A stretch of 64,000 bases of DNA from Gelidibacter maritimus (GTDB lineage Bacteria; Bacteroidota; Bacteroidia; Flavobacteriales; Flavobacteriaceae), in contig NZ_JACGLT010000002.1 in the NCBI RefSeq assembly GCF_014062315.1, positions 310,001 through 374,000 of the forward strand. The letters are read 5' to 3'. This document shows positions 38,897-46,238 of the stretch, piece by piece (positions within the stretch are counted from its first letter, which is position 1; every line of letters starts with the position of its first letter). The translations under genes and the position numbers were made by a program. Below the pieces are notes generated by a model. That model saw only the letters and a program-made list of their open reading frames with translations. It ran no database searches and was not told the DNA's origin.

Positions 38897-40387
38897 TTAA
38901 CTTCCATTTGATCGTGCTATCCAATTTACTGGATGTTTTAATACTTTTAACAATCGGTCTTCTTCACTATTTTTTTCAGGATGATGATCGTACGCCCACT
39001 GTACATGAGGTGGCAAACTCATTAGGATGCTTTCAATACGACCATTGGTTTTCAATCCAAATAAAGTGCCTTTGTCGTGTACCAGGTTGAATTCGACATA
39101 ACGGCCACGACGGATTTCCTGCCAGGTTCGTTGTTCATCTGTATAGGGAGTTTCTTTTCGTCTTTCAACAATAGGCACATAACCGTCTAAAAAGCTATCG
39201 CCAACTTCGGTAACAAAATTGTACCAATCAGTCATGGACATGTCATCTTTTGACTTGCAATAATCAAAAAACAAACCACCAACACCACGTGCTTCATTCC
39301 GATGTGAGTTCCAGAAATAATCATCACATCTTTTTTTGTAAAGCTCATAAAAATCTGGATGATGTTTATCGCACACCGTTTTACAGACTTGGTGGAAATG
39401 AATTGCATCTTCATCAAATAAGTAGTAAGGCGTTAAATCTTGTCCACCACCAAACCATGAATCTACAATATTCCCCTCTTGATCGTACATTTCGAAATAA
39501 CGCCAATTGGCATGTACGGTAGGCACCATCGGGTTCTTAGGATGGAGTACCAAACTCAAACCACAGGCGAAAAAATCGGCATCTTTTACACCAAAATACT
39601 GCTGCATGCTTTCTGGCAATTCACCATGAACTGCGGAGATATTGACGCCACCTTTTTCAAAGACCTTACCATTTTCTATAACTCTTGTGCGGCCGCCGCC
39701 ACCTTCAGGACGTTTCCAAAGGTCTTCCTGAAACTTGGCTTTGCCATCTATGGCTTCAAGTTTTGAAGTGATGGTATCTTGGAGGGTTAAGATGTAATTG
39801 TAGAATTTATCTTTGGTGGAAGAACCTGTCAGGTTTTTAAAACCTGACAGGTCTGAATTATCGATTTTTGATTGTTTATGAACAAATGTGAAATTTTCCA
39901 AATCTGAGAATAAGTTTATAACGTAGTTTTTTTGGTTTGAAATTAGGCTCTTTTCACTATGCATGAAGTGATTAAAAGAAGAAAATTGATAATCCGAAAA
40001 ATTTTGAACTACGCCGTGATTTTGTGGGTTCTTATGAATATATAGGATGAGGTTTTTTAGATAAGCTTCATCTGTTAATGCAACTCTTTTGAAGGGTCTT
40101 TCGAATAAAGTCCCCGTTCTTGAATTCTGTTTGTTAAATGCTTTTGAATAGGCGTTAAATAAATTTGAAAAAGCTTGGGAAGCTTCCTTTTCATCGGAAA
40201 TTATTTGGACCACCATATGAAAATGATTATCCAATAAGCAATAGCATAGAATCTCCACCTTTGACGCCAAATGTTTGTCAACTAACTTGAGGAAATATTG
40301 CATATTATCTTCATTTTTAAAAAGAAGTTCACTGTTTATACCTCGATTAAAAATGTGATAATAATGTTCTTTTTTTAATGTCTCCAT
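38897..40387 (-). CDS. hemF: in-frame fusion: REP-associated HUH transposase + coproporphyrinogen III oxidase
   Basis: One 496-codon frame. Residues 1-175 are a RAYT/Y1 transposase: HYYHIFNRG, CLLDNHFHMVVQ with the HUH pair His55/His57, RPFKRVAL, and ILYIHKNPQ with the likely catalytic Tyr116. Residues 178-190 are translated palindrome (DLSGFKNLTGSS). From 191 the frame is HemF (TKDKFYNYILTLQD...), about 305 aa, with WKRPEGGGGRTRV, GGGQDLTPYYL and RRGRYVEFNLVHDKGT, complete to its normal end. HemF oxidatively decarboxylates coproporphyrinogen III. No ATG, GTG or TTG lies between the palindrome and the conserved HemF start, so HemF is either made as a fusion, released by proteolysis, or begun at a weak codon. 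Confidence 0.85.
   Translation of the reverse strand: METLKKEHYYHIFNRGINSELLFKNEDNMQYFLKLVDKHLASKVEILCYCLLDNHFHMVVQIISDEKEASQAFSNLFNAYSKAFNKQNSRTGTLFERPFKRVALTDEAYLKNLILYIHKNPQNHGVVQNFSDYQFSSFNHFMHSEKSLISNQKNYVINLFSDLENFTFVHKQSKIDNSDLSGFKNLTGSSTKDKFYNYILTLQDTITSKLEAIDGKAKFQEDLWKRPEGGGGRTRVIENGKVFEKGGVNISAVHGELPESMQQYFGVKDADFFACGLSLVLHPKNPMVPTVHANWRYFEMYDQEGNIVDSWFGGGQDLTPYYLFDEDAIHFHQVCKTVCDKHHPDFYELYKKRCDDYFWNSHRNEARGVGGLFFDYCKSKDDMSMTDWYNFVTEVGDSFLDGYVPIVERRKETPYTDEQRTWQEIRRGRYVEFNLVHDKGTLFGLKTNGRIESILMSLPPHVQWAYDHHPEKNSEEDRLLKVLKHPVNWIARSNGS
39824..39852. repeat. REP-like palindrome at the transposase/hemF junction
   Basis: ACCTGTCAGGTTTT, one T, then its exact complement: 14-bp arms inside the fused reading frame. 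Each arm holds a smaller dyad ACCTG-T-CAGGT. The sequence is close to the palindrome at 40408 on the other side of the transposase. Confidence 0.8.
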
Positions 40388-40407
40388 TTTAATTTTTAGA
40401 TCTTTTC

Positions 40408-40440
40408 AGACCTGACAGGTTTTAGAAACCTGTCAGGTCT
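40408..40440. repeat. REP-like palindrome upstream of the transposase
   Basis: Perfect 15-bp arms (AGACCTGACAGGTTT and complement) around TAG, 21 bases before the transposase start codon on the minus strand. As RNA it would form a strong hairpin in the leader of the fused gene. Confidence 0.8.
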
Positions 40441-40596
40441 CGTAAATTCAAAAACAACAATCTTAATACATTTAACTTATAGATTAGGCCGCTATCAATA
40501 CCGCGATTGTAAATATAATAACAGTGGCCTTTTCTAATTTTCATGTTTTATAAATCGTTTTGCATTAGACCTATAAGGTTTTATAAATCATGCAGG

Positions 40597-41136
40597 TCAG
40601 CTCGAGCTCGAAAACTCAAAAAGCTCCATATCCAAAGGAGTTCCGTTTAAGGGTTTAAACTCATCTTTTAATGTGCACTGCCATTTAAAACCCGCCTTTA
40701 TAGCTGTATTAACACTTGGAAAATTAGTTTTATGCGAAAGGATTTGAAGGGTTTCTAAGCCTAAGTTTTTAATAACATAGTTGGAAGTTGCCCTTATAGC
40801 ATCGCTCATAAAACCTTTACCCTTAAAGCGATTTCCAATGCAGTAGGCAAATTCACCTTGTTTTGCATCCCAATCTAAATTCTTTAAAATGATCATTCCA
40901 ATGATATCTTTACTATGATTGTCATGAATGATAAAAACAAACTCTTTCCTTTTCTCAGCCGAAGTAACTTTTCGTTGGATATAGTTTCGCGTACTCTCCA
41001 AAGTCCTATTTTCCGCCAGTGTTTTAGGTAAGAATCGTATAAATCGATCGGTATTCGAAACCAGTAATTTATTAAGCTGCAAGGCATCTTTGGGCTTTAA
41101 ATGTGATATACTGAAATGTTCCGAACTATAAATCAT
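40597..41136 (-). CDS. GNAT acetyltransferase (RimJ/RimL type)
   Basis: A 179-aa acetyltransferase. FAYCIGNRFKGKGFMSDAIRA is motif A, and LETLQILSHKTNFPSVNTAIKAGF is the late motif shared by RimJ/RimL proteins that acetylate N-termini of proteins or amino acids. The start overlaps the EI24 gene by 11 bases, so the two are co-translated. The target is unknown. Confidence 0.88.
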   Translation of the reverse strand: MIYSSEHFSISHLKPKDALQLNKLLVSNTDRFIRFLPKTLAENRTLESTRNYIQRKVTSAEKRKEFVFIIHDNHSKDIIGMIILKNLDWDAKQGEFAYCIGNRFKGKGFMSDAIRATSNYVIKNLGLETLQILSHKTNFPSVNTAIKAGFKWQCTLKDEFKPLNGTPLDMELFEFSSSS

Positions 41137-41887
41137 TAGATTTTAATCTGTTTTGTGATTTAAGCAAAGCTACAGTTTCTGTTGATGCCGCAGTTACCGA
41201 CAATGGCAGCACAAAAATAATTCCGATAACGGGAATCAGTAAGAATAACATAAAAACAATACCGTTCCCGATGGCCAATCCACGATGCTGTTTTACAAAT
41301 TTAATGCTTTCGGCGTATTTAAAATGCCTTTCCAAGGTATAATCCATATTTCCAAAGCCGGCATAATAGGCTTGTACCAAGAACAATACAATGCTGGAGA
41401 AAATACCGATTATGGGCACAAAGCCGATAAGTATTATTGGGATGGTCAATAACAACTCCATCATTAAGTTTCTGATATTTATCTTTATGCCACGCCACAA
41501 TTGCTCAGAAAACGAGGTATCTCTATGTTGGTGTCTTTCCACGCCCAATAAATAGGCTTCGATTTTTTCCGATACCGGACTCATAAAAGGCGCCGACAAT
41601 GCCATGACAATATGCTTATAAAGTATAAAGCCCAGCACAAGAATTAAAATTCCGCTAAGAATTTCACTGACCACGAAAAAGGTTTCACTTCCCCATTCCC
41701 AAACCCAAAGTTTAGATATATAAAAAGCGAAATTATCCGAAAAACTATAAGCAGAAACTATAATTGCCGATGCCACTAAAAAACTGATCAGCATAGGAAT
41801 ACCAAAAAACTTCCAAAGTTTGAGTTTGGAAATTAATTTGAAAGTTCCTGTGTAGGCTTTAATGCCTTTTAAAATGCTGCCAATCAT
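41126..41887 (-). CDS. EI24 domain membrane protein (CysZ-like)
   Basis: A 253-aa inner membrane protein with about five to six hydrophobic segments. The opening GSILKGIKAYTGTFKLI, APFMSPVSEKIEAYLLG and YAGFGNMDYTLERH fit the EI24/CysZ family. E. coli CysZ transports sulfate, but flavobacterial members sit in unrelated contexts. Here it is followed by a GNAT gene and lies within the heme region, which does not point to sulfur. Confidence 0.86.
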   Translation of the reverse strand: MIGSILKGIKAYTGTFKLISKLKLWKFFGIPMLISFLVASAIIVSAYSFSDNFAFYISKLWVWEWGSETFFVVSEILSGILILVLGFILYKHIVMALSAPFMSPVSEKIEAYLLGVERHQHRDTSFSEQLWRGIKINIRNLMMELLLTIPIILIGFVPIIGIFSSIVLFLVQAYYAGFGNMDYTLERHFKYAESIKFVKQHRGLAIGNGIVFMLFLLIPVIGIIFVLPLSVTAASTETVALLKSQNRLKSNDL

Positions 41888-42075: not shown

Positions 42076-43107
42076 TTAGGATGAAACTTCATACTCCTTT
42101 ACCGCATCAATAAAGGCTTTGGCATTATCCAAAGGGATATTTGGTAAAATCCCGTGACCTAAATTCACGATATATTTATCTTTCCCAAACTCGTCAATCA
42201 TTTGTTTTACCATTTTCTTGATTTCTGCCGGTGGCGAAAACAGTCTTGAAGGATCAAAATTACCTTGTAAGGTGATATTTCCTCCAGTTAAATAACGAGC
42301 ATTTCTTGGCGAACAGGTCCAATCAACACCTAAAGCTGTAGCATTTGATCTCGCCATATCGCCAAGGGCGAACCAACAACCTTTTCCAAAAGCGATGACT
42401 GGCGCATGATCTTTTAAAGCCTCAATAATCTGATTGATATATTGCCAGGAAAATTCATGATAATCGGATGGCGCCAACATACCGCCCCACGAATCAAAAA
42501 TCTGTACAGCATTACATCCCGCTGCAACTTTTGCCTGCAAATAGGTAATGGTGGTATCTGTTATTTTTTGTAACAATTGATGTGCAGCAACTGGATTTGT
42601 AAAGCAAAACTGCTTGGCTTTATCAAAATTCTTACTGCCTTGACCTTGTACGCAATAGCATAAAATGGTCCAGGGAGATCCTGCAAAGCCTATTAAAGGC
42701 ACCTCGTCATCTAGCATCTCTTTGGTCATTTTAATGGCCTGCATAACATAGTCCAGCTCTACCCCTACATCCGGAACAATGGCATTGTCCACATCTTGAG
42801 ACGTACGAATCGGGTTTGGTAAGTAGGGCCCAAAATCAGGTTTCATTTGTACCTCAATATTCATGGCTTGCGGAATGACCAAGATGTCACTGAATAAAAT
42901 AGCGGCATCCATTCCGTATCGACGGATAGGCTGCACGGTAATTTCACTCGCCAATTCTGGAGTTCTACAACGGGTAAAGAAATCGTATTTTGCTTTTATT
43001 TCTTGAAATTCCGGCAAATACCGCCCAGCTTGACGCATCATCCAAACTGGTGGACGGTCTACAGTCTCACCTTTTAATGCTCTTAAGTATAAATCGTTTT
43101 TTATCAT
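42076..43107 (-). CDS. hemE: uroporphyrinogen decarboxylase
   Basis: Removes four carboxyl groups from uroporphyrinogen III to give coproporphyrinogen III. Length 343 aa. [17 protein letters not shown] is the first signature, [11 protein letters not shown] carries the catalytic Asp, and [16 protein letters not shown] and NLGHGILPN complete the barrel. It lies between the EI24 gene and hemCD on the same strand, with gaps of 157-188 bases. Confidence 0.96.
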
Positions 43108-43264: not shown

Positions 43265-44845
43265 TTATGAGGAGTAATTCTCATTCACCAAATCAATTAC
43301 GCTCTCAACTGTTGGAATTCGGGCAACCCGCACATCGTCAAAATGCTTATTGGCTTCGGCCGCCGTCGTATCGCCTATGCAGTAGGCAATTTTACCTTCG
43401 GCATGGTTATTAATCATATAACTCTCAACGGTTGATGGACTATAAAACATAATACCTTCAATATTGGGATCTATTTTTTCCGAATCCAAAATCGTTTTGT
43501 ATGCCTCAACCTCATTGACCTTGATATGGTTTTTTTCTAAAGTCTGAGACAATTCATCCAACCTTATATTGCTACAAAAATGGGTGACTTCTGTGCCATC
43601 GATAAAATCCACCAAATAGGCAGCAAGAGCTTTGGCATAGTTTTCAGAGTGCTTGACCTTGCCAATCTTCTTTTCTATTAACCTTTTAGTGCGTCTTCCA
43701 ACACAATAAATATTTTTAAATTGCAATTCCTCCTTCGGAACACTGGCCACAATTGCTTCTACAGCATTTTGACTCGTGATAACAACGTTTTCAATGGGCG
43801 ACTTTAAAATGGGTTTTGCAATCCTATTAAAGCTTATTTTCAAGAAATCGGTACTTTCTACAGCAACATTTTTAAATCGCTGGCGCTGCAATTCGGATAA
43901 ATTCCGAGTAGAGAATACCTGTATGGCCCTATCGGTCTCATTGAGCTCATTCATCACACGATTTCCACCACGCTCCAATATATAATCTGCTGCAAACTGA
44001 GCAATATTATGGTGGTTTCCGAGTTTTTCCGTTCGTGTAACTTCAATTTTTTTGGTGCCATCCAAGCTCAACAAAACACCATGAAAGTTAACTTCTTCAT
44101 CTTTGATAAATGCCAAAGCCCCAATTGGAGCAGAACAACCGCCTTCCAAAAGATTTAAAAAGCGACGCTCAATCGTGGTACAGATTTCAGTTTCTTCGTG
44201 ATTGATTTCTTTGCAAACAGCTAAGATGTCTTCGTCTTCTTCTCGTGCAGTAATCATAATGGCGCCTTGTGCCGGAGCAGGGACCATCCAATCTAAATTG
44301 ATGGCATCTTGTGGGCGTACACCAATTCTGCCAATTCCAGCAGCTGCAAAAATGGCCGCATTCCAATCCTCATTGTCCTTCAGTTTTTGAAGTCTCGTGT
44401 TAACATTGCCTCGCAAACCAACTATGGTATGCGTTGGATAGCGATTGAGCCATTGGGCTTTACGCCTTAAACTTCCAGTGGCTATCACCGCCTCTCTTTG
44501 CGATAAGAATTCCTCGTTTTTTTTAAAGACCAAAGTGTCCCTGACATTGCCACGCTTTAACACGGCTGCTTGAACAATGCCTTGAGGTAAAAGTGTCGGG
44601 ACATCTTTAAGGGAGTGTACGGCAATATCAATCTCGTTGTTGAGCATTGCTGCATCTAAAATTCGAGTAAATACGCCCACAATACCCATTTCATAAATGG
44701 GTTTATCAAGCACCATATCGCCCGTAGACTTTACCGGAATTAATTGCGTACTATACCCTAAACCCTCAAGTTGTTGTTGTACAGTTTTGGCTTGCCATAA
44801 CGCTAATTCGCTATCGCGAGTACCAATTCTTATTATTTTAGACAT
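43265..44845 (-). CDS. hemC: fused hydroxymethylbilane synthase / uroporphyrinogen-III synthase
   Basis: Two successive heme enzymes in one 526-aa chain. HemC covers about 1-300: GTRDSELALWQ, HSLKDVPT (Asp81 catalytic), TGSLRRKAQ, and Cys237 in LLEGGCSAPIG, which holds the dipyrromethane cofactor. HemD covers about 310-526: VVITSQNAVEAIV, IYCVGRRTKRLIE, VEAYKTI, IMFYSPSTVESY and IAYCIGDTTAAEA. Fusion would pass the unstable hydroxymethylbilane directly to the cyclising domain. It overlaps the end of hemA by 8 bases. Confidence 0.94.
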   Translation of the reverse strand: MSKIIRIGTRDSELALWQAKTVQQQLEGLGYSTQLIPVKSTGDMVLDKPIYEMGIVGVFTRILDAAMLNNEIDIAVHSLKDVPTLLPQGIVQAAVLKRGNVRDTLVFKKNEEFLSQREAVIATGSLRRKAQWLNRYPTHTIVGLRGNVNTRLQKLKDNEDWNAAIFAAAGIGRIGVRPQDAINLDWMVPAPAQGAIMITAREEDEDILAVCKEINHEETEICTTIERRFLNLLEGGCSAPIGALAFIKDEEVNFHGVLLSLDGTKKIEVTRTEKLGNHHNIAQFAADYILERGGNRVMNELNETDRAIQVFSTRNLSELQRQRFKNVAVESTDFLKISFNRIAKPILKSPIENVVITSQNAVEAIVASVPKEELQFKNIYCVGRRTKRLIEKKIGKVKHSENYAKALAAYLVDFIDGTEVTHFCSNIRLDELSQTLEKNHIKVNEVEAYKTILDSEKIDPNIEGIMFYSPSTVESYMINNHAEGKIAYCIGDTTAAEANKHFDDVRVARIPTVESVIDLVNENYSS

Positions 44846-46085
44846 TTGTAGTGGATTCTAACTGGAACACTCTTCTGATAAGCTCAATACTTTCATCAGT
44901 TGAGCTAGCATCATCAGTTTTAAGATGATACGCAAAATGATTGGTTATTTTTTGAATGATATTATTACTGATCAATTCAGCTTGCGCCTCATTAAAATCA
45001 GCATGCTTTTTACGTTGGGTGTCCAATTCCGCATTTTTTAAATCGAGCAATTTATGCTTCAATGCGTTAATGGTAGGTGCAAATTTACGAGTTTCCATCC
45101 AACTGTTAAAATCCTGTTTGACTTCTTCTAAGATATTTTCCGCCAATGGAATAAATGTTTTTCTACGTTCCAAGGTATCGTCTGTCATTTGCGATAAATC
45201 GTCGAGATGGATCAAGGACACATTAGGCAATTCGGTCACATCTGGATTCACATTCCGTGGAATGGACAAGTCTAAAATCAATAACGGTTTTTTAGATTGG
45301 ATGTGGGGTTTATCAACCGTAGGATTAAGAGCGCCCGTAGCAACAATTAAGATGTCAGAGACATTAATTTCTTCTTGAAGATTGGTAAAATCCTTAACAA
45401 TGAGATTGAATTTCCCCGCCACTTCTTGCGCCTTGGTCTTTGTTCTGTTGATTAAGGTGATATGTTCGTTTTTGGTATGTTTCACCAAATTCTCACAGGT
45501 GTTTCTACCGATTTTCCCGGTACCAAAAAGCAAAATATTTTTATCCGAAACGTTTTCAATCGTTTTTAAGATATATTGAACCGAAGCGAAAGATACAGAT
45601 GTTGCCCCTGAGGAAATTTCCGTTTCGTTTTTAATGCGTTTACTTGCTCGGATAACAGCGTTTAACAACCGCTCAGTAAATGCGTTGAGCAATCCCATTT
45701 TCTTTGAGGCTCTTGCCGATGTTTTAAGCTGGCTTATGATTTCAAAATCACCTAAAATTTGACTATCCAGGCCCGAACCCACACGGAACATGTGTGCAAT
45801 GGCTTCTTGATTCTTATGAATATAGGCCACGTGTTGGAACTCCTCAAGCGTACCTTTGGAATTTTCACAAAGTAATTTGATGAGTTGGTAAGGGTGCTCT
45901 GCAAAACCATAAAGTTCGGTTCTGTTGCAAGTAGAATTGACAATTAAGCTCTCAATACCTATTTCCTTCGATTGACGCAGTAAGTTTTGTTTAGACGTAT
46001 CGTCCAAACTAAAACGACCTCTAATATCTGCATCGGCTTTTTTATAGCTCAATCCGATTGCATAAAAATAAGTAGTTTTCAACAT
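44838..46085 (-). CDS. hemA: glutamyl-tRNA reductase
   Basis: Reduces glutamyl-tRNA to glutamate-1-semialdehyde, the entry to C5-pathway heme synthesis. From ATG 46085 (MLKTTYFYAIGLSY) it has 415 aa. Cys53 in NSTCNRTELYGF is the nucleophile. SGLDSQILGDFEI and LFGTGKIGRNT (NADPH loop) follow, with a C-terminal dimerisation helix. The open frame extends to 46175 but those 30 residues have no family match. No hemL is in the window. The gene is divergent from an AraC regulator, an attractive candidate controller. Confidence 0.95.
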   Translation of the reverse strand: MLKTTYFYAIGLSYKKADADIRGRFSLDDTSKQNLLRQSKEIGIESLIVNSTCNRTELYGFAEHPYQLIKLLCENSKGTLEEFQHVAYIHKNQEAIAHMFRVGSGLDSQILGDFEIISQLKTSARASKKMGLLNAFTERLLNAVIRASKRIKNETEISSGATSVSFASVQYILKTIENVSDKNILLFGTGKIGRNTCENLVKHTKNEHITLINRTKTKAQEVAGKFNLIVKDFTNLQEEINVSDILIVATGALNPTVDKPHIQSKKPLLILDLSIPRNVNPDVTELPNVSLIHLDDLSQMTDDTLERRKTFIPLAENILEEVKQDFNSWMETRKFAPTINALKHKLLDLKNAELDTQRKKHADFNEAQAELISNNIIQKITNHFAYHLKTDDASSTDESIELIRRVFQLESTTNV

Positions 46086-46238
46086 AAGATAGATCTCAAT
46101 ACTGGCGTTAGAAATTCGATAGCCGAAGATTAAAGACAAAAGTAGATATGTGATTGGAATATAAACAACGCTCAAAGGACTATAAATGTCGTTCGATGTT
46201 TTTTACTCTTTTATTTTATATAAGTGTTTTAAATACCA

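Follow-up and report, generated by a model that had tools for sequence, protein, structure and literature searches.

The fused hemF locus of Gelidibacter maritimus

The subject of this work is an open reading frame (ORF) of the flavobacterium Gelidibacter maritimus in which a REP-associated tyrosine transposase (RAYT; REP, repetitive extragenic palindrome) is joined to HemF, the oxygen-dependent coproporphyrinogen III oxidase. It lies in a stretch of 64,000 nucleotides (assembly GCF_014062315.1, contig NZ_JACGLT010000002.1, positions 310,001 to 374,000), referred to below as the window, whose own numbering is used for all coordinates; all features described in the window are on its minus strand. 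An initial annotation, made from the sequence alone, had proposed that one uninterrupted frame of 496 codons holds a nearly complete RAYT, a translated palindrome and an otherwise complete HemF, and the arrangement was confirmed: the three form a single minus-strand ORF at 38897-40387, encoding 496 amino acids (calculated mass 58.0 kDa) and matched by both Pfam and NCBIfam models. The remainder of the interval originally noted, up to 40440, holds a second palindrome (40410-40438), directly before the RAYT start. Where labels are needed, the window genome is G000 and its hemF locus is L056.

The HemF part (38900-39814) is recognised with ease, the Pfam domain Coprogen_oxidas (PF01218) covering residues 195-489 with E 4.6e-134 and profile positions 2-295 of 295, the equivalog model NF003727 scoring over its curated cut-off, and solved HemF structures also being matched. 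For the front part, of the TnpA_REP (Y1 HUH) type and comprising roughly residues 1-176 (39860-40387), a RAYT profile gives a match but both library models stay below their cut-offs: REP_Tyr_transpos (NCBIfam NF047646) matches residues 18-136 with E 3.1e-16 and 59.6 bits against a curated cut-off of 80, and Pfam Y1_Tnp reaches 21 where 23 is required. The top structure match of this part is a solved TnpA_REP (4er8), at a weak E of 0.012. With a HemF model that clears its threshold and a RAYT model that falls short, the front half of such a protein is easily missed in annotation. The same holds more widely, in that NF047646 matches all of 38 fused proteins examined at E 1e-5 or better with a best E of 1.4e-16, implying that all 38 lie under its cut-off; Y1_Tnp matches 33 of the 38 at E 0.01, and HemF domain models match every one.

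Between the two parts lies the linker palindrome (39824-39852), which has 14-nt arms and is translated as DLSGFKNLTG. Both palindromes were identified by pattern match, with two matches inside the window against 0.00 expected by chance, and both fold as RNA into hairpins more stable than any of 200 shuffled versions (-21.4 kcal/mol, z -6.7, for the linker palindrome; -25.2 kcal/mol, z -6.3, for that upstream). Immediately beyond, at the place where comparison with unfused Gelidibacter puts the native ATG of HemF, stands an ACC codon (39815-39817), and no in-frame ATG, GTG or TTG occurs within 27 codons 5' of it, so that the usual HemF start is indeed gone, as had been claimed.

A further observation concerns the other side of the cassette. 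Between the GNAT acetyltransferase gene and the present cassette (40461-40544), translation reveals the decayed N-terminus of another RAYT, which probably corresponds to a 26-bit partial profile match at L056 and is probably the trace of an older cassette.

Recurrence of the fusion

The distribution of the fusion, a phenomenon wider than the single locus at which it was first noticed, contradicts the possibility raised at the outset that the insertion might be recent and a chance event that the cell tolerates. When related hemF loci were compared, it was present in four of nine Gelidibacter genomes, each of a different species (G000, G002, G003 and G005), every one of the nine having a single HemF match. 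In a draw of 397 Flavobacteriaceae genomes, matches at E 1e-40 or better were obtained in 336 (in a few perhaps only to the RAYT part), and 18 scored above 900 bits across the whole fused profile, the next best reaching 701; one of these 18 (G219, locus L139) has an adjacent rather than a fused RAYT, leaving 17 genomes with the fusion, in 17 genera. For 12 fusion genera besides Gelidibacter a second member had been drawn, and each such member is without the fusion. If the sister of G219 is added to these 12, ten of the 13 sister genomes give no RAYT match at E 1e-10.

That the fusion also occurs beyond the family was considered and rejected on the basis of two draws. Of 395 genomes drawn from the phylum, 70 matched the RAYT at E 1e-30, and among the RAYTs listed only three lie in a frame longer than 500 amino acids, all of them in Flavobacteriaceae. 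A draw of 395 from the order left only G000, G132 and G164 at a limit of E 1e-212, which is so stringent that divergent fusions could have been missed.

A complementary search of named genomes for the RAYT only, using two peptide patterns, gave at least 519 confirmed relatives, of which the best 80 were analysed. As many as 69 of these 80 lie upstream of hemF on the same strand, 37 being fused and 32 adjacent (with gaps of 30-2363 nt); RAYTs of the fused lineage occur in few copies per genome. The other 11 had no hemF in the locus, and were inspected by eye: one (L135) stands in an open frame at a contig edge with hemE-like and GNAT-like genes 5' to it, and another (L160) is near a ferrochelatase-like gene. 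Five Flavobacterium RAYTs (L155, L167, L180, L182 and L184), again judged by eye, precede a fumarase-like gene, the front of which is a possible second favoured site of this RAYT lineage.

Loss of the HemF start codon and conservation of frame

For comparisons at the level of single loci, all distinct hemF loci were pooled after removal of identical ones, giving 111: 48 fused, 32 with an adjacent RAYT and 31 without a RAYT. The last group is not a random sample, comprising five Gelidibacter loci together with others selected because their frames were long or their rank was high. The native HemF ATG has been lost in 33 of the 48 fused loci but in none of the 32 adjacent ones (Fisher p 3.6e-11, uncorrected for relatedness) and in three of the 31 without RAYT. 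These three exceptions have, respectively, TTG at the same place (-33), an ATG two codons upstream (-35) and an ATG 22 codons upstream (-55). On quick trees of the fused rows, changes between presence and loss of the ATG number at least 11 on the HemF tree and at least 10 on the RAYT tree. The codons that replace it are ATC (15 cases), ACC (four), ATA (three), GTC, GTG and TTT (two each), and GTT, TTG, CTG, CTA and CTC (one each). The 27 codons upstream are free of an in-frame ATG in 28 of the 33 cases, and the 100 codons upstream in 22; if GTG and TTG are counted as well, 18 of the 33 have no candidate within 27 codons. ATC accounts for 15 of the 18 isoleucine replacements, despite being the rarest isoleucine codon in these ORFs (246 of 1347, about 18%).

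The reading frame gives a further view of the same junction. Among the 61 RAYTs that end no more than 400 nt from hemF, 53 share its frame (48 fused without a stop, five adjacent) and eight do not, compared with an expectation of one third in frame (binomial 6e-18, again without correction for relatedness), and 31 of 35 genera or unnamed rows show frame 0 only. The distance from the catalytic-position Tyr to HemF takes 27 different values in the fused loci, from 72 to 160 codons. Both the in-frame excess and the ATG loss are what would be expected if HemF were translated as part of the fusion. The claim that HemF relies on read-through from the transposase gene is well supported on these two grounds, and also by the strong purifying selection on the HemF part (dN/dS, the ratio of nonsynonymous to synonymous change, of 0.050 between G000 and G003).

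Two individual loci may be mentioned here. In a Polaribacter metagenome-assembled genome (L145) the RAYT lies 30 nt 5' of hemF, with a stop where relatives read on and the hemF ATG kept, unlike three other Polaribacter loci, which are fused; from its sequence, L145 would appear to be either a broken or a not-yet-formed fusion. At L050, an unfused hemF in G103, the native start position reads ATC and an ATG lies 22 codons upstream of it; this might be the scar of a lost fusion.

The RAYT part: motifs, family and constraint

In the window protein the HUH motif is H55-F56-H57 (40217-40225, within NHFH), and the candidate catalytic tyrosine is Tyr116 (40040-40042, within YIHKNP), its role being assigned by analogy with TnpA_REP as described in the available text of PMC8266576. 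Both histidines are retained in 47 of the 48 fused loci, the middle residue is F or Y in all 48, and a tyrosine stands at the catalytic position in all 48 fused and all 32 adjacent loci. In 15 fused RAYTs compared by eye, most have LFE[RK] and the tyrosine motif is mostly Y[IV]HKNP.

The nearest known elements are those of class 2 of the TnpA_Y1 family, and the motifs exactly match none of the entries compared in the accessible Table 1 of PMC6006769. Subclass 2.6 of Bacteroidetes (RAYT group 5), given in that table as NH[LIV]H, WQ and YIH[QN]NP, was considered and rejected because the motifs disagree (NHFH or NHYH, F instead of W, and YIHKNP); the same table gives a variant of subclass 2.1 with NH[YF]H, FQ and Y[IV]HLNP, listed without REPs.

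For the RAYT part, comparison of G000 with G003 gives dN 0.077, dS 0.66 and dN/dS 0.117. Among the pairs listed, RAYT dN/dS ranges from 0.12 to 0.39 in fused pairs with RAYT dS below 1 and from 0.06 to 0.19 in adjacent pairs. Purifying selection together with the retained HUH and Tyr residues argues that the RAYT part is maintained as a protein, and it may still act on its own palindromes. The further suggestion that the arrangement is domesticated thus fares well as regards selection and retention of catalytic residues; it fits less well with the apparent exchange of cassettes between hemF loci, described below. As first proposed, the arrangement might also tie heme supply to control of the element, with the leader hairpin as a possible regulator.

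Palindromes

An inverted repeat within the final 150 nt before HemF was found in 32 of the 48 fusions, compared with none of 48 control segments taken from inside hemF. The palindromes near the RAYTs are of two types, here called type 1 and type 2, and all 32 adjacent cassettes carry type 2. When the type was mapped onto trees (77 rows, three untyped rows being left out), the RAYT tree required four changes (shuffles averaged 19.6, with a minimum of 15) and the HemF tree 15 (average 19.2, minimum 14); judged by these counts, palindrome type tracks the RAYT phylogeny more closely than that of HemF.

At the level of whole genomes, 21 genomes have a RAYT linked to hemF (20 fused, and G219 with its adjacent RAYT), and the pattern used first (type 1 plus symmetric type 2) was present in 19 of them, as against four of the 21 others, among them G145, which itself bears an adjacent RAYT. 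The type-2 pattern was found in 17 of 42 genomes, namely eight of the nine with type-2 cassettes, four with type-1 cassettes and five others with one copy each. Copies outside the cassette are clear in G254, G266, G043 and G002.

The cassette as a unit, and its exchange between hemF loci

That RAYT and palindromes behave as a unit is illustrated by an empty site and its occupied counterpart. In G051 the TAG of the GNAT gene is directly followed by ATGAAAGAT, which begins with the hemF ATG, and in its close relative L116 a whole cassette stands between the same TAG and ATG.

Eleven pairs of loci were profiled for identity in 100-nt windows. Between Gelidibacter gilvus (G002) and Gelidibacter pelagius (G005) the operon windows are 81-92% identical and the cassette only 47-72%, and three Winogradskyella pairs show a similar dip (cassette 50-71%, hemF mostly 84-97%, upstream region mostly 72-93%), one of them also having a long gap next to the cassette. 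The trees point in the same direction. The four fused Gelidibacter HemF sequences form one clade with support 99, whereas a single clade of the Gelidibacter RAYTs is rejected by the approximately unbiased (AU) test (p 0.0042, for a group chosen after the tree had been seen), and the correlation between RAYT and HemF distances is 0.30 in fused as against 0.76 in adjacent loci. From these comparisons some cassettes appear to have been exchanged between hemF loci while hemF itself stayed native. Presence of the fusion is patchy on the HemF tree (21 changes, at least six of them forced by well-supported branches), and on the RAYT tree the fused RAYTs cluster (four changes).

The heme operon and other routes

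The genes that precede the fusion ORF run, in order on the minus strand, from hemA (44838-46175; TIGR01035 over cut-off) through a hemC-hemD fusion gene (43265-44845; TIGR00212 over cut-off, plus a HEM4 domain), hemE (42076-43107; TIGR01464 over cut-off) and an EI24/CysZ-type membrane protein gene (41126-41887; PF07264) to the GNAT acetyltransferase gene (40597-41136; PF13302). It may be remarked that in this operon hemC and hemD are likewise one fused gene.

In the five unfused Gelidibacter the GNAT stop overlaps the hemF ATG, and among the 31 RAYT-free loci there are 23 in which the start position of hemF falls between -11 and +12 nt from the nearest upstream stop (counting stops that end a frame of at least 110 codons). 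So tight a junction suggests that in unfused loci hemF is probably translationally coupled to the gene upstream.

The initial annotation had also proposed that a second hemF or a hemN be sought. A hemN is present in the window genome, so HemF need not be the sole route there; no second HemF match was found in the nine Gelidibacter genomes. In one fused genome with TTT at the HemF start (G332, assembly 96% complete), no hemN match was found at E 1e-60, and the fusion, on this showing, may be the only enzyme for its step. A second RAYT is present near a hemW-like radical-SAM gene (itself a weak match to the hemN model) in the same four fusion-bearing Gelidibacter species: L004/L195 in G000 (C67), L021 in G002 (C17), L022 in G003 (C1) and L025-L026 in G005 (C9).

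Proposed explanation and alternatives

We consider it likely that a RAYT/REP cassette settled at the 5' junction of hemF captures the hemF start and so becomes hard to lose. A REPtron-like cassette, consisting of the RAYT and its flanking palindromes, would occupy the junction 5' of hemF, often between GNAT and hemF, and in so tight a place would cut the translational coupling unless it were read through in frame. An in-frame fusion would rescue HemF, the polypeptide now being made from the RAYT start; the HemF ATG, once dispensable, would then repeatedly drift away, and from that point loss of the cassette would cost the cell its HemF. Different RAYT lineages, each with its own palindrome type, would replace one another in front of the native hemF.

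There are a number of points that weigh against this explanation. Clear swaps are seen in only four of the 11 pairs, the other seven being without a dip, and the borders are resolved only to 100 nt; moreover, such exchange could have come about by homologous recombination. At E 0.01 no RAYT remnant, such as would have attested directly to a past loss of the cassette, was detected upstream of the unfused hemF in the 31 loci. The native ATG is kept in 15 of the 48 fusions, the excess of ATC perhaps reflects weak initiation at AUC, and in the window in-frame starts are found somewhat further upstream, a TTG at 28 codons and an ATG at 49; as far as the sequences go, separate HemF may arise from a non-AUG or RAYT-internal start, or by proteolytic separation of the fusion. 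The dN/dS ranges given above suggest that constraint on the RAYT may be weaker when it is fused than when it is adjacent. Palindrome copies number at most 19 per genome, far under classical REP numbers, and the counts include the cassette's own (both of those in G160 and two of the four in the window genome), while the agreement of palindrome type with the RAYT tree is fed by the adjacent cassettes all being of type 2. The figure of 69 in 80 for RAYTs upstream of hemF is a biased rate, the search profile having been built from fusions. Lastly, among 39 further genomes there are 37 that gave a hemN match at E 1e-60 or better (over cut-off in 36), and with hemN so widespread the lock-in of the cassette would be weaker than with an essential gene.

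An assembly or sequencing artefact is so improbable that it can be set aside, as the fusion occurs in independent genomes of many genera, several of them single-contig (G254, G132, G164, G175 and G352). That HemF is made separately by internal initiation, either at a weak non-AUG start in the old position (AUC, AUA, GUG, UUG or CUG) or within the RAYT, the open frame then being incidental, we think unlikely, though it would accommodate the 15 ATC codons among 18 isoleucine replacements as possible weak starts, the three of 48 fusions with GTG or TTG at the old start, the 15 with ATG, and the 15 of 33 lost cases with an ATG, GTG or TTG either at the position or within 27 codons upstream. It accords poorly with the 11 of 33 lost starts that have become ACC (as in the window), TTT, GTC, GTT, CTA or CTC, none of which is known to serve as a start codon, or with the 28 of 33 without a nearby upstream ATG, and it leaves the in-frame excess unexplained. 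Vertical inheritance of an ancestral fusion or neighbourhood, lost many times and with a fast-diverging RAYT part but without exchange, is disfavoured, and we regard it as very unlikely. The patchiness of the fusion on the HemF tree, the clustering of fused RAYTs on their own tree and the absence of such a RAYT from ten of the 13 sister genomes could all be read in its favour; the dip confined to the cassette between more similar flanks in four pairs, the rejected Gelidibacter RAYT clade beside a supported HemF clade, the lower distance correlation in fused loci and a palindrome type that follows the RAYT more than HemF all speak against it.

A rather different question, subordinate to start capture and overlapping with it in probability rather than competing with it, is whether homologous recombination of the hem operon among related species is the sole means by which cassettes move, with hemF passive and the RAYT uninvolved. 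We would put this close to, though short of, an even chance. The junction is always the same operon junction, and the available text of PMC8049555 describes RAYTs as not self-copying; yet the four swap pairs show a dip that does not extend past the cassette (as far as 100-nt windows can resolve, and recombination mediated by palindrome or linker could mimic this), and the probable older relic beside the present cassette also sits uneasily with it.

To return to start capture, its bolder form would be a hemF-homing RAYT/REP family that repeatedly settles in frame, takes over the start, is retained by way of the enzyme and is displaced by other cassettes. This is put forward tentatively, as something we find possible but on balance somewhat doubtful.

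Relation to known systems and wider significance

The families that make up this locus are well known, and it is their combination that would constitute a new form of RAYT/REP element, start capture being the bolder case. Like known RAYT (TnpA_REP) genes, or REPtrons, those described here have an HUH motif with a single catalytic Tyr, an ORF flanked by two palindromes, few copies per genome, and copies of the palindrome elsewhere in several genomes; unlike them, the gene forms the 5' portion of the ORF of a metabolic enzyme at a single locus, between instances of which cassettes have seemingly been exchanged. HemF likewise retains a complete catalytic domain, passes its equivalog model and is under strong purifying selection, but differs from other HemF proteins in that it carries some 190 extra N-terminal residues and lacks its own ATG start. 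Some mobile elements attach at a fixed site by a conserved gene, for instance Tn7 at glmS, and they share with the present case the repeated occupation of one chromosomal site by a housekeeping gene; they spare or restore the end of the target gene, however, whereas here the element is the 5' end of the target ORF. Host-transposase fusion proteins are also known, mainly from eukaryotes, and resemble this one in uniting a transposase domain with a host protein that is under purifying selection; what distinguishes the present case is a single locus, different transposase lineages and a host start codon that is often gone.

A literature search, for which subscription journals were mostly outside coverage, found no report of a RAYT-HemF fusion. 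According to the available part of PMC6006769, proteins of unexpected length were set aside in that survey on the view that they were either fusions or errors of annotation, and the words Bacteroidetes, Flavobacter, fused and fusion are absent from the main text, as available, of a description of RAYTs in PMC2817692. The portions available of PMC8266576 and PMC8049555 treat TnpA_REP/RAYT as domesticated, and the latter describes RAYTs as vertically inherited and of unknown exact function.

The loci collected here form a natural series, from no cassette through a separate cassette and a fusion with ATG to a fusion without ATG, in which start-codon decay, cassette exchange and the specificity between palindrome and transposase can be measured. 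RAYTs are retained over long times for unexplained reasons (it is their exact function that the accessible text of PMC8049555 calls unknown), and here the persistence of one lineage would have a visible and testable cause, namely fusion to a heme enzyme that has lost its own start. Taken at the level of sequence, the production of HemF appears to depend on a mobile-element gene in many marine flavobacteria. If the hemF-homing form of the proposal is true, a low-copy transposase would persist by capturing the start of a host gene, and start capture would then be a mode of maintenance distinct from transposition, from horizontal spread alone and from toxin-antitoxin addiction.

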